A stretch of DNA of 64,000 nt from Thermotogota bacterium. Lineage in GTDB: Bacteria; Thermotogota; Thermotogae; Thermotogales; Thermotogaceae. Below are positions 7,285 to 13,414 of this stretch, piece after piece. Location: the NCBI GenBank assembly GCA_030550515.1, contig JAUQPE010000010.1:1-64000 (forward strand), read 5' to 3'. The position numbers and the translations under genes were made by a program. Positions within the stretch are counted from its first letter, which is position 1; every line of letters begins with the position of its first letter. The notes under the pieces are model-generated. The model saw only the letters and a list, made by a program, of their open reading frames with translations. It searched no databases and was not told where the DNA came from.

Positions 7285-8460
7285 TCAGGCGCCCAGAAGG
7301 CTCATCACCAAAGCGGAAAAGATCGGAACGGACACGTTGTCGTCGATGGAAAGCGGGATCACTTCGCAGACGGTGGAGGCTAGCGCACCAAGGAGCCCCG
7401 CCGTCAACCCCACAAACCCCAACGCGCTCGCCACGTGTGCCACGTAGACGGAAACGACCAGATACGCGAGCGAACCTTCCAAGGTCTTTTCGAACAATTT
7501 CCTCTTTCCAAAGGACATTCCGATGATCTTGGCGGCGAGATCTCCAAAGGTGAGGAAGCAACCGGAAACGAACGCGACACGAACATCGAAAAGCAAAAAG
7601 CTCAGCAAGATGCCGAGTAAGAAAAGTGTCATCGAAGAGACTCGCACGCGTTCCTTTTCCTTGAAGATCTTGAAGGGAACTTCGTTGTGGAAGAACTCGG
7701 AAACCCTCTTGCTGAAGAGCCTGATCACGTCCATCAACAAAAACAAAAGCAAGATGGCACCGTTGAGAAGCAAGAAATTTCCTTTTCCCATCTTCAAACC
7801 CAGTACCAACAAGGCAATGGCGGCGGGTCTTATCAGAACCCTCCAAACCCTCGTCCCCTCGGAAAACCTTATCAACTTCTGATCCAGGGTGTTCTTCAAA
7901 TTTATGAGGAACAACGTGAAAATGAGTAACAGGACAAACCAAGCGTCTTTTATCGTTCTCAACCACAACAGCACGCCGAGTGCTGGCAACACGAAAAGCC
8001 CAACCACGTCACCCCTTCTCGAAGACCAAAGGATCACGAGGACGATGGAAAGGAGCACGAGAAAATCTAAGAGAAGCACGCGTAATGGGAGGACCAACCA
8101 ATGGTTCCACAGGAAAAACAAAAGCAAGCCAACCGTGGTCGCCGCTCCCTTTCCACCGCGAAACTGGAGATAGAAGGGAAACACGTGTCCCAGAATCGCA
8201 GAATAACCGCTCAGGTAGGCGACCCAGTGGGGTGCCCCTAGGGATCTCGCAAAAGAGAGCGCCATGATACCTTTCGTGGTGTCGTAGAGGGCCGTTACCG
8301 CCGCCGGCCACAAACCGACCGCCCTGTAGACGTTCGTCGTACCTGCGTGGTAGGTCCCAACGTTTCTGATGTCGATCCCGAGGATCCACTTGGTGAGGAA
8401 ATAAGCCGGAAGAAAACTTCCAAGCAGGTACCCCGTGATCAGGGCCAAAAAGACACTCAC
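7285..8460 (-). CDS. PlsY-like acyltransferase fused to polyprenol/diacylglycerol-kinase-like domain
   Basis: A 391-residue polytopic membrane protein with two recognisable halves. Residues 1 to ~200 match PlsY, which transfers acyl groups from acyl-phosphate to glycerol-3-phosphate: GYLLGSFLPAY, a glycine-rich loop ending GTTNVYR, then GHVFPFYLQFRGGKGAAT. Residues ~205-391 match the dolichol/phytol kinase family (COG0170), CTP-dependent lipid kinases, with FGDLAAKIIG, FGKRKLFEKTLEGS and CEVIPLSIDDNVSVPI. The first PlsY motif is unusual (GTYHAGTTN where GSGNIGATN is typical). The GTG at 8460 is chosen because GAGGTG lies 9 bases upstream; a TTG at 8508 would put the start inside the terminator hairpin of the preceding gene. 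It may follow readthrough from the ferritin-like gene. Confidence 0.8.
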   Translation of the reverse strand: MSVFLALITGYLLGSFLPAYFLTKWILGIDIRNVGTYHAGTTNVYRAVGLWPAAVTALYDTTKGIMALSFARSLGAPHWVAYLSGYSAILGHVFPFYLQFRGGKGAATTVGLLLFFLWNHWLVLPLRVLLLDFLVLLSIVLVILWSSRRGDVVGLFVLPALGVLLWLRTIKDAWFVLLLIFTLFLINLKNTLDQKLIRFSEGTRVWRVLIRPAAIALLVLGLKMGKGNFLLLNGAILLLFLLMDVIRLFSKRVSEFFHNEVPFKIFKEKERVRVSSMTLFLLGILLSFLLFDVRVAFVSGCFLTFGDLAAKIIGMSFGKRKLFEKTLEGSLAYLVVSVYVAHVASALGFVGLTAGLLGALASTVCEVIPLSIDDNVSVPIFSALVMSLLGA

Positions 8461-8475
8461 ACCCAACGACACCTC

Positions 8476-8505
8476 GAGGAAGGCCCACCGTGAAAGGGTG
8501 GGCCT
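8476..8505 (-). terminator. Hairpin after the ferritin-like gene
   Basis: On the minus strand, arms AGGCCCACC and GGTGGGCCT enclose a 7-base loop directly after the stop codon at 8509. The following tract is TTCCTCG, a poor T run, so this may be a weak terminator or an RNA-stabilising hairpin that allows transcription into the PlsY-like gene. Confidence 0.5.
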
Positions 8506-8508
8506 CAA

Positions 8509-8937
8509 TTAGAACTTAACGGCCAAAAGGTTCCTCAAGTGTTTCTTCTCCTCCTCGACAATCTCCTCAACCGCCTTTTTCTCCGGAACGTAGTTCAAGA
8601 TTTCGCTGTAAAAGAGCACGGAGTCTTTTTCGACTTCGATCGCCAACCTCACGGCTTCCTTCAGGTCTTCCGGTGGTTTTTCGACGAGTTTGGGAAATAT
8701 GGAGGTTTCGGCCAAAGCCTGTAGGTAACCTAACACCTCCGGGGAGACCTCGAAGTCTTCCTCGTATCTTCCCAGGATCTCCTGGAACCTCCTCGAGTGG
8801 TCCCTTTCTTGATCCGCGAGGTTCTCGAAGAGTTTCCTCACCTCTCCAGAAACCTTCTCCGCCAAGTCCTTGTAGTAGACGTACCCTGCCGATTCTATCC
8901 TCAACGCGATGTTCAGGAGATCTCTTGCGGAGATCAA
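8509..8937 (-). CDS. Ferritin-like di-iron protein (rubrerythrin-type)
   Basis: A 142-residue, mostly helical protein with the four-helix ferritin-like pattern. Candidate iron ligands are E in RIESAGYVYY, the ExxH in DQERDHSRRF, E in IEVEKDSVLFY and the ExxH in EEEKKHLRNL. There is no C-terminal rubredoxin domain. Relatives detoxify peroxide or store iron in anaerobes. The TTG start overlaps the TGA of the HydB-like gene (TTGA), with GGAGGTGG upstream. Cotranscription with a NADH-oxidising flavoprotein suggests a role in oxidative defence or electron delivery. The fold is well supported, the reaction is not. Confidence 0.78.
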   Translation of the reverse strand: MISARDLLNIALRIESAGYVYYKDLAEKVSGEVRKLFENLADQERDHSRRFQEILGRYEEDFEVSPEVLGYLQALAETSIFPKLVEKPPEDLKEAVRLAIEVEKDSVLFYSEILNYVPEKKAVEEIVEEEKKHLRNLLAVKF

Positions 8938-10757
8938 GATACCACCTCCTCCACGGGGAGTGCAGGCGTTACCTTGCTGATGGCGCCGAACCTGCAGACT
9001 TCGATACAGCTGCCGCACCTCACGCACTCGGCCTGGTTTATGGTGTGGACCTTTCTCACTTCACCGGCGATGCACTGGACGGGGCACACCTTCGCACACG
9101 CCGTACAACCGACGCATTTGCTCGGATCTATCACGTAACTGATGAGCGCTTTGCACTTCTTGGAAGGGCACTTCTTTTCCAAAACGTGTGCGAGGTACTC
9201 CTCCCTGAAGTACCTGAGGGTGGAGAGCACGGGGTTGGGCGCGGTCTGGCCGAGCCCACAGAGCGATGTGTCCTTCACCACGTTGGCCAGTTTTTCGAGT
9301 TCCACCAGGTCTTCCTCCGTTCCTTCACCGGCGGTGATTTTCTCCAGGATTTCGAGCATTTTTTTCGTTCCTTCCCTACAAGGCGTGCATTTCCCACAAG
9401 ACTCGTCCACGGTGAACTGGAGGAAGAACTTCGCCACGTCGACCATACAGTCGTCTTCGTCCATCACGATCATCCCACCGGAACCCATGATGGCACCGAG
9501 TTTTTGCAGGGATTCGAAGTCCACCGGCACGTCGATGTACTCGGCCGGGATGCATCCACCGCTCGGTCCTCCCGTCTGGACGGCCTTCAGTTTCTTGTCA
9601 CCGACGATACCTCCACCGATCTCGTAGATCAACTCCCTCAAGGTGATCCCCATCGGTACCTCCACGAGACCCGTGTTCTTCACCTTCCCGGCCAACGCGA
9701 AGACCTTGGTTCCGGGAGAGGTCTCGGTACCGTACTTTCTGAACTCCTTTGCACCGTTTCTGATGATCCAGGGAACGTTCGCAAACGTCTCCACGTTGTT
9801 TATCACCGTGGGGTATCCCCACAAACCTCTTTCAACTGGGTAAGGAGGTTTCACCCGAGGCTGTCCCCTCTCTCCTTCAATCGAAGCCATGAGGGCCGTC
9901 TCCTCACCGCACACGAAGGCACCCGCACCTATCCTGATCTCCACATCGAAGGAAAAGCCACTGTCGAAGATGTTCTCACCCAAAAATCCGTATTCCCTCG
10001 CTTGCTCTATAGCTATACTCAACCTCTCGATGGCCAAGGGATATTCCGCCCTCACGTACACGTAACCCTTTTGGGCTCCTATGGCGTATCCAGCGATGAT
10101 CATGCCCTCCAACACCGCGTGTGGGTCTCCTTCGAGCACGGACCTGTCCATGAACGCACCCGGGTCGCCTTCGTCCGCGTTGCAGACCACGAACTTCCTC
10201 TCGCTCTTCTGCTTGGCTGCGAGTTCCCACTTCAGTCCTGTTGGAAAACCAGCCCCTCCCCTTCCCCGAAGTCCGCTCTCTTTGATCTCCCTTATAACTT
10301 CTTCCGGCTTCATCTTCAAAGCCTTTGCGAGGGCGAAGTATCCATCCCGCGCGATGTACTCCTCTATCTTCGTGGGATCTATCACCCCAAGGTTTCTGGT
10401 GACGATCCTCACCTGCTTTTTGAAGAAAGGTATCTCCTCGAAGACACGGGGAACGGGCCTTCCAATGGGAGCTTGGTAGAGGTACTTTTCCACGATCCTC
10501 CCTTTGAGTACGTGCTCCTCGACGATTTCTCTTGCAGCTTCAGGCGTGAGCTTTTGATAGAAGACGCCTTCGGGGTACACAACGGCTATTGGTCCAAGCG
10601 TGCAGGCTCCCATACACCCAGTCTCTATGACCCTGACGAGCTCGTTCAACCCATACCTTTTGAGTTCTTCTTCGAAGACATTCTTCACGCTCTTTTCTCC
10701 CGCAGATATGCAGGCGCCTCCCGCACAGATCAAGATCGTGTTCGTCGCAAGTGGCAC
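8934..10757 (-). CDS. HydB/NuoF-like NADH-oxidising flavoprotein subunit
   Basis: A 607-residue cytoplasmic subunit related to HydB of trimeric [FeFe]-hydrogenases, HndC and NuoF. Domains in order: a thioredoxin-like [2Fe-2S] domain (cysteines in LICAGGACIS and TGCMGAC), the FMN/NADH-binding core (GLRGRGGAGFPTG, NADEGDPGAF, CGEETALM), a [4Fe-4S] site (ESCGKCTPCREG plus LCGLGQ), and a C-terminal ferredoxin with two CxxCxxCxxxC clusters. It should move electrons between NADH and iron-sulphur partners, perhaps ferredoxin. The GTG at 10757 is favoured because GGAGGTG lies 7 bases upstream. It is third in a three-subunit set, but no catalytic hydrogenase subunit is encoded anywhere in the window. 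Confidence 0.92.
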   Translation of the reverse strand: MPLATNTILICAGGACISAGEKSVKNVFEEELKRYGLNELVRVIETGCMGACTLGPIAVVYPEGVFYQKLTPEAAREIVEEHVLKGRIVEKYLYQAPIGRPVPRVFEEIPFFKKQVRIVTRNLGVIDPTKIEEYIARDGYFALAKALKMKPEEVIREIKESGLRGRGGAGFPTGLKWELAAKQKSERKFVVCNADEGDPGAFMDRSVLEGDPHAVLEGMIIAGYAIGAQKGYVYVRAEYPLAIERLSIAIEQAREYGFLGENIFDSGFSFDVEIRIGAGAFVCGEETALMASIEGERGQPRVKPPYPVERGLWGYPTVINNVETFANVPWIIRNGAKEFRKYGTETSPGTKVFALAGKVKNTGLVEVPMGITLRELIYEIGGGIVGDKKLKAVQTGGPSGGCIPAEYIDVPVDFESLQKLGAIMGSGGMIVMDEDDCMVDVAKFFLQFTVDESCGKCTPCREGTKKMLEILEKITAGEGTEEDLVELEKLANVVKDTSLCGLGQTAPNPVLSTLRYFREEYLAHVLEKKCPSKKCKALISYVIDPSKCVGCTACAKVCPVQCIAGEVRKVHTINQAECVRCGSCIEVCRFGAISKVTPALPVEEVVS

Positions 10758-10772
10758 GACCTTCACCTCCGT

Positions 10773-11771: not shown

Positions 11772-12533
11772 ATGCTGGAGAACGAACTTTTGTACGACGA
11801 CGGAAAACATCGCTTCGTTTTCCTTGGATGGGAAGAGAGGGAAGAAGAGATTGTGCAGACGAACCAGTTTCTAATCTTGGACAACGAAGAGGGAATTCTC
11901 TTGGACCCAGGCGGAGCACACATATTTCCGCGCGTCCTCTCGAACATCTCCGAGGTGATCGATCCTTCGAAGATAAGATACATTTTCTACTCCCATCAGG
12001 ACCCAGACGTCACGTCTGGAATCGCCCTATGGCTTTCCGTTTGTGAGAACGCACATATTTACATCTCTTCGCTTTGGGTCAGATTTCTACCGCACTTTGG
12101 CGTTTACGACGCTCGAAGGATCATTCCTATACCAGACGGCGGGATGGAAATAAAGCTCTCCAGTGGCAACAAGCTGGAGATACTGCCCGCCCACTTTCTC
12201 CATTCAGTGGGCAACTTCAACCTGTACGATCCCGTCGCCAAAATTCTGTTCTCCGGTGACATCGGCGCCGCCGTTTTCAAAAAGGGAGAGCGTTACAGGT
12301 ACGTGGAAGATTTCGACCGCCATGTGGCTTTGATGGAAGGTTTTCACAAGAGGTACATGGTTTCGAACGTGGCGATCAAAAAATGGGTTGAGATGGTATC
12401 CACCAGGAAGATCGAAGTGATGGCACCCCAGCACGGCGCCGTTTTCAAAGGTGAAAACGTTCGGAAGTTCCTGGAGTGGTTCAAAAACCTAAGATGCGGA
12501 ATCGACGAGTTGAGTAGCATCTACAACAAGTGA
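11772..12533 (+). CDS. Oxygen-binding di-iron protein (ODP-like metallo-beta-lactamase fold)
   Basis: A 253-residue stand-alone metallo-beta-lactamase domain of the flavodiiron-protein type, lacking the flavodoxin domain that the reductases carry. Candidate metal ligands fall in the expected order: H75, D77 and D79 (SHQDPD), H141 or H144 (AHFLHSVG), D163 (FSGDIG) and H221 (PQHGA). The usual glutamate of the HxExD motif is aspartate here. Proteins of this type (ODP) are known from spirochaetes and Thermotoga as O2/iron sensors feeding chemotaxis. The soluble chemoreceptor encoded 14 bases downstream fits that role. An ATG start follows a GGGAGGGAAGGAG site. Confidence 0.85.
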
Positions 12534-12547
12534 AACGAGGTGAAAGC

Positions 12548-13375
12548 ATGGACCTCTTGCATAGGATGTCTTCTGCCCTCTTCAGCGAAAACCTCATCAT
12601 ATCCTTCATAGAACAACTCGACGAGGCGTTCGTTGGGAAACTCAACCGGATTCAAAGGAAGGTCGAAGCCATAAAGGACAGGTTTGTGGAGTTGAACGAG
12701 ATGTTTCAAAACATCACGAAAGACTTCCAAGAAAAGGGCAAGGAATTGTTTTCAACGATACAAGAGATAGAATCCATCAACAGCGAAATCGCAGAGGAAT
12801 TGAAGAAATCCGGAACGGACATTGACCATCTGGTCGCGAAGGTGAACGAACTCTCTTCCCAGATAATGCACACGCTCGAAGGTGTGAAGGTGATAGAGGA
12901 GCACGTAAAGAGCATAACCAACATAGCGAGGCAAATCAACATACTCGCCTTGAACGCGAGCATAGAAGCGGCGAGAGCGGGAGAAGCCGGGCGAGGTTTC
13001 GCGGTGGTGGCCAAGGAAGTCCAAACCTTGTCCGTTGAAACGAACAGGGTATCGCAGGAAATCGCTAAAAAGACGGTGGATCTACTCAACTCCATCCAGA
13101 CCTCGCTCGAAAGCCTGTCCTTCATGGCCAACCTGTTTGAGACCATCGGAAGAACGCTCCAAAAGATGGTGAAGTTTTTGGAAGAGAATTCCAGCATGCT
13201 CAAGAGCGTGAAGGAAACTCTGGACAGAGCCGGAAACGAATTGTACAGGGAAAGCGCGGAGATAGACGAAAGCACGAAAGTCCTTGAAGAGACGACGAAG
13301 GGATTTGTGGCCCTTTCAAGGGTGATCAACTCCGTTATCTCGGCTCAAAAGAAGCTCAGGGACATCCGAATATGA
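12548..13375 (+). CDS. Soluble methyl-accepting chemotaxis protein (TM0014-like)
   Basis: A 275-residue cytoplasmic chemoreceptor that is almost entirely coiled coil and lacks transmembrane, HAMP or ligand-binding domains. The kinase-control tip is well preserved ([15 protein letters not shown] followed by [11 protein letters not shown]), so it should engage CheA and CheW. Length and architecture match the soluble receptor TM0014 (Tm14) of T. maritima. Because it has no sensing domain of its own, the adjacent ODP-like protein is the obvious candidate sensor. The ATG at 12548 has GAGGTGA seven bases upstream, 14 bases after the ODP-like stop, and a strong terminator follows. Confidence 0.92.
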
Positions 13376-13383
13376 AGAGCCAG

Positions 13384-13414
13384 ATCCCCGCGGAGGGGAT
13401 TTTCTTATTTTTTT
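13384..13414 (+). terminator. Intrinsic terminator after the chemoreceptor gene
   Basis: Arms ATCCCC and GGGGAT with a 5-base loop are followed by TTTTCTTATTTTTTT. It separates the sensor pair from the por operon. Confidence 0.88.

Follow-up and report, generated by a model that had tools for sequence, protein, structure and literature searches.

Chemoreceptors whose sensing module is a separate protein are rare, and the ODP-coupled receptors represent such a case. This split sensor of ODP and receptor is already known and was described in 2019, when Muok et al. reportedly presented ODP in PNAS as the protein through which domain-less receptors sense Fe(II)/O2, in a paper whose title is said to give both Fe[II] and oxygen as signals. 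Peroxo-binding chemistry, with a di-iron peroxo species, has likewise reportedly been observed for ODP homologs. ODP serves as an auxiliary subunit that activates soluble receptors devoid of sensing domains; it binds iron and oxygen directly and interacts with its cognate receptors (PMC6978683), and ODP and MCP genes share operons in two gene orders (PMC7319448). In Treponema denticola, a member of a different phylum, ODP is likewise genetically coupled to a receptor, TDE2496, which modulates CheA although it has neither TM nor sensing modules; the ODP of this species could not be seen in arrays, and its binding may be no more than peripheral (PMC7666581).

Here we analyzed a stretch of 64,000 nucleotides of Thermotogota DNA, referred to as the window, in which an ODP-family gene is followed by the gene of a soluble chemoreceptor (Table 1). 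We consider it highly probable (about 90%) that this pair represents the known ODP/soluble-chemoreceptor system in its Thermotogae form. Since relatives of both proteins and the ODP system itself have already been published, the pair is a member of a known system rather than a new one; the window copy contributes a thermophilic example that is well conserved, together with a concrete candidate docking place, and leaves the known picture unchanged.

Table 1. Features of the ODP/receptor locus and its surroundings, in window coordinates.
Feature	Position	Strand	Basis or remark
PlsY (glycerol-3-phosphate acyltransferase) gene	7285-8508	-	
Rubrerythrin-family di-iron protein gene	8509-8943	-	
HydB-like/NuoF gene	8934-10766	-	upstream neighbor, divergent operon
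ODP-family di-iron protein gene	11772-12533	+	ATG start, 253 aa; Pfam ODP PF19583, 6qrq match
Likely ribosome-binding site of the receptor gene (GAGGTG)	12537-12542	+	5 nt before ATG 12548; sequence reading
Soluble chemoreceptor gene (Tm14-type)	12548-13375	+	275 aa; PF00015 7.8e-27; 3g67 E 4.8e-65; all-helical model
Candidate ODP docking end: residues 15-26 of the receptor (N..SF...LDE), a conserved N-terminal segment	12590-12625	+	conservation
Terminator-like stem-loop with T-rich tail, separating the receptor gene from the PFOR operon	13382-13402	+	pattern scan
PFOR gamma gene	from 13473		downstream neighbor, PFOR operon

Characteristics of the two proteins

The preliminary description had portrayed the first protein as flavodiiron-like and of the ODP type, devoid of flavodoxin and carrying HxDxD instead of HxExD, and our comparisons bear this out. 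The ODP profile PF19583 was matched over its full length (positions 1-194 of 194) with 268.7 bits (3.9e-80; cut-off 27.2 bits), while the same Pfam search returned no flavodoxin match within the protein. Its metal motif reads H75-Q-D77-P-D79, and HxDxD is invariant in all 63 aligned ODPs, as are the ligand-type residues H75, D77, D79, H144, D163 and H221 together with H141, which has no His counterpart in the aligned flavodiiron proteins. Based on the full-length profile match and the di-iron ligands, the protein is assigned to the ODP family. Its best PDB match, 6qrq (E 1.1e-138, residues 1-252), was deposited like 6qwo as 'Oxygen-binding diiron protein', and we take both to be the Thermotoga maritima ODP. 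The match runs from end to end with identical motifs, and although about a quarter of the residues differ, none of these lies at a ligand position. The second-best match was 6qnm, presumably the ODP of T. denticola, and identity to the ODPs of the nearest genus amounts to 73-75%. Flavodiiron proteins (4dik, 1vme, 1e5d) have the di-iron metallo-beta-lactamase domain in common with the window ODP (E 1e-10 to 1e-6), but the latter differs in the missing flavodoxin and in the D that replaces E in HxExD, so that HQDPD stands where 4dik and 4dil read H-T-E-P-D. With neither a fused flavodoxin domain nor HxExD, the protein, as judged from its sequence, is not a member of the flavodiiron proteins.

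The second gene begins after an intergenic gap of 14 bases (12534-12547), as had been noted before. An alternative GTG start at 12530, which would overlap the odp stop, is possible, but the ribosome-binding site is better placed for the ATG. The receptor was also said to lack a sensing domain, and this was confirmed, since MCPsignal (PF00015) is the sole domain above the Pfam cut-off, no membrane-type hydrophobic segment was found in the protein (maximum Kyte-Doolittle 19-mer 1.06) and the model is all helix. The receptor is a cytoplasmic helical hairpin that has its tip at approximately residue 140 (EAARAGE) and carries neither TM nor HAMP nor sensor domain. The AlphaFold model of the monomer shows a continuous helix over residues 2-272 (mean pLDDT 84.9, pTM 0.46), and no interface is visible in this monomer model. 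The closest solved relative is the soluble methyl-accepting chemotaxis protein 3g67/3g6b, presumably Tm14 of T. maritima, and identity to the receptors of the respective genus is approximately 55-61%. Hairpin and tip sequence are identical in the two proteins and neither carries a sensor domain. With an MCP domain, no TM or sensor domain and odp adjacent in one operon, the window receptor has the sequence features of an ODP-coupled soluble chemoreceptor, and it would be expected to engage ODP and to modulate CheA. A scan with one methylation consensus matched no site in the receptor, so that adaptation may proceed without methylation.

Conservation of the gene pair and its neighborhood

Conservation of the pair had been named in the preliminary description as a check of the split sensor. 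ODP was found in 58 of 103 Thermotogae-class genomes and is intact in 57, and in every one of these 57 it is followed by a soluble receptor gene of similar size on the same strand. Conversely, all close receptor homologs (E up to 1e-30; 45/45) adjoin an ODP. The remaining genome, G096 from the sister genus within the Thermotogaceae, is a natural case of joint odp and receptor loss: its ODP frame is broken by a stop and truncated, H75 is changed, and only fragments are left of the receptor gene, while three CheW-domain matches and several full-length receptors are kept. CheW is present in all 58 ODP genomes, and ODP is absent from all 17 CheW-less genomes, a strong association (Fisher p 1e-7, kinship ignored) that to some extent follows lineage. 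ORFs of the CheA/CheW type are also present in the genome from which the window derives.

The pair lies between a HydB-like module and a PFOR operon, and two thioredoxin-like [2Fe-2S] proteins are also encoded in the neighborhood. Adjacency to oxygen-sensitive PFOR and the HydB-like module, which the preliminary description had brought in as context, was thus correctly observed, but these neighbors are kept beside the pair only in its own genus and in the sister genus g4 and are therefore not part of the sensor module. A functional link of the pair to PFOR/HydB was rejected on this ground, and the adjacency to oxygen-sensitive enzymes is suggestive at most. Terminator-like sites were not enriched in our scan (2 observed versus 2.8 expected in shuffles), although the position of the one behind the receptor gene fits, and a sigma-70 promoter scan found no site versus 2.0 expected by chance. 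The rubrerythrin-family gene directly downstream of the HydB-like gene represents another oxygen/peroxide-related neighbor. It is followed by the PlsY gene, whose product has a second, unassigned hydrophobic half of approximately 200 aa and is possibly a fusion of two lipid-metabolism membrane proteins.

Proposed mechanism and alternative explanations

Taken together, homology, operon order and the conservation of the pair in 57/57 genomes support the preliminary reading of the two genes as a split sensor. By analogy with published homologs, the window ODP would take up Fe(II) in its HxDxD/H/D/H site and, once loaded, would bind O2 to form a stable di-iron peroxo species. A shift in its metal or O2 state would then alter its contact with the receptor, which has no sensor domain of its own; the N/C-terminal, tip-distal end of the receptor is the most likely place of this contact. 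The hairpin tip would in turn change CheA activity and hence swimming, a modulation of CheA that we expect from the published homologs of the receptor.

It could be argued that ODP is mainly an enzyme that reduces O2/peroxide or NO in the manner of flavodiiron proteins and protects the PFOR and hydrogenase modules, and that the receptor is only incidentally part of the operon, since the fold and most ligands are common to flavodiiron proteins and oxygen-sensitive enzymes are encoded nearby. However, the lack of a flavodoxin domain and the invariant HxDxD speak against such a role, the constant partner is the receptor and not the PFOR/Hyd neighbors of two genera, and odp decayed together with the receptor gene in G096, all of which make a mainly enzymatic function very improbable. 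A different question concerns the nature of the signal, since the sequence data single out neither O2 nor Fe(II) as the main cue. Thermotogae are mostly strict anaerobes and the title of the 2019 paper reportedly names both signals, which would suit Fe(II) availability, or another metal or ligand, as the physiological signal rather than O2; in view of the peroxo-binding chemistry reported for homologs we regard this as rather unlikely, though worth considering.

For the split sensor, the conserved N-terminal segment of the receptor points to a candidate docking place. Besides the expected hairpin-tip residues, S19, F20, L24, G89, F197, N214 and Q267 are invariant in all 57 Thermotogae receptors, and N15 is present in 54 of them. 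In two ODP-linked receptors of non-Thermotogae origin, most of the seven invariant residues are replaced, and of S19, F20 and L24 only S19 is retained, in one of the two (L045). With the tip at approximately residue 140, positions 19-24 face positions 259-267 at the tip-distal end, which is the usual seat of the sensor domain in chemoreceptors; the crystal construct 3g67 starts after the conserved segment and thus omits it. From this arrangement we propose, by inference, that ODP docks at the tip-distal N/C-terminal end. With less than even confidence, we suggest that S19, F20, L24 and Q267 together make up a platform dedicated to the docking of ODP, which would replace the usual sensor domain and possibly also methylation-based adaptation.

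Other ODP arrangements

Further arrangements of ODP genes were encountered during the survey. Two tandem ODP genes precede one receptor gene in G039 and G042 (L086:4194-5730 (-) and L097:3964-5544 (+)), perhaps encoding a two-subunit or two-signal sensor. In the class relatives G051 and G038, ODP additionally occurs in fusion with GGDEF and receiver domains (L108:3065-5116 (-) and L109:3915-5948 (+)), and the metal site of the fused G038 protein seems to be lost, since SADIE replaces HxDxD. In Campylobacterota MAGs (L047:3491-5759 and L048:3497-5756), no receptor partner was found beside the ODP; there, the ODP gene follows, with a slight overlap, that of a response-regulator receiver-domain protein.
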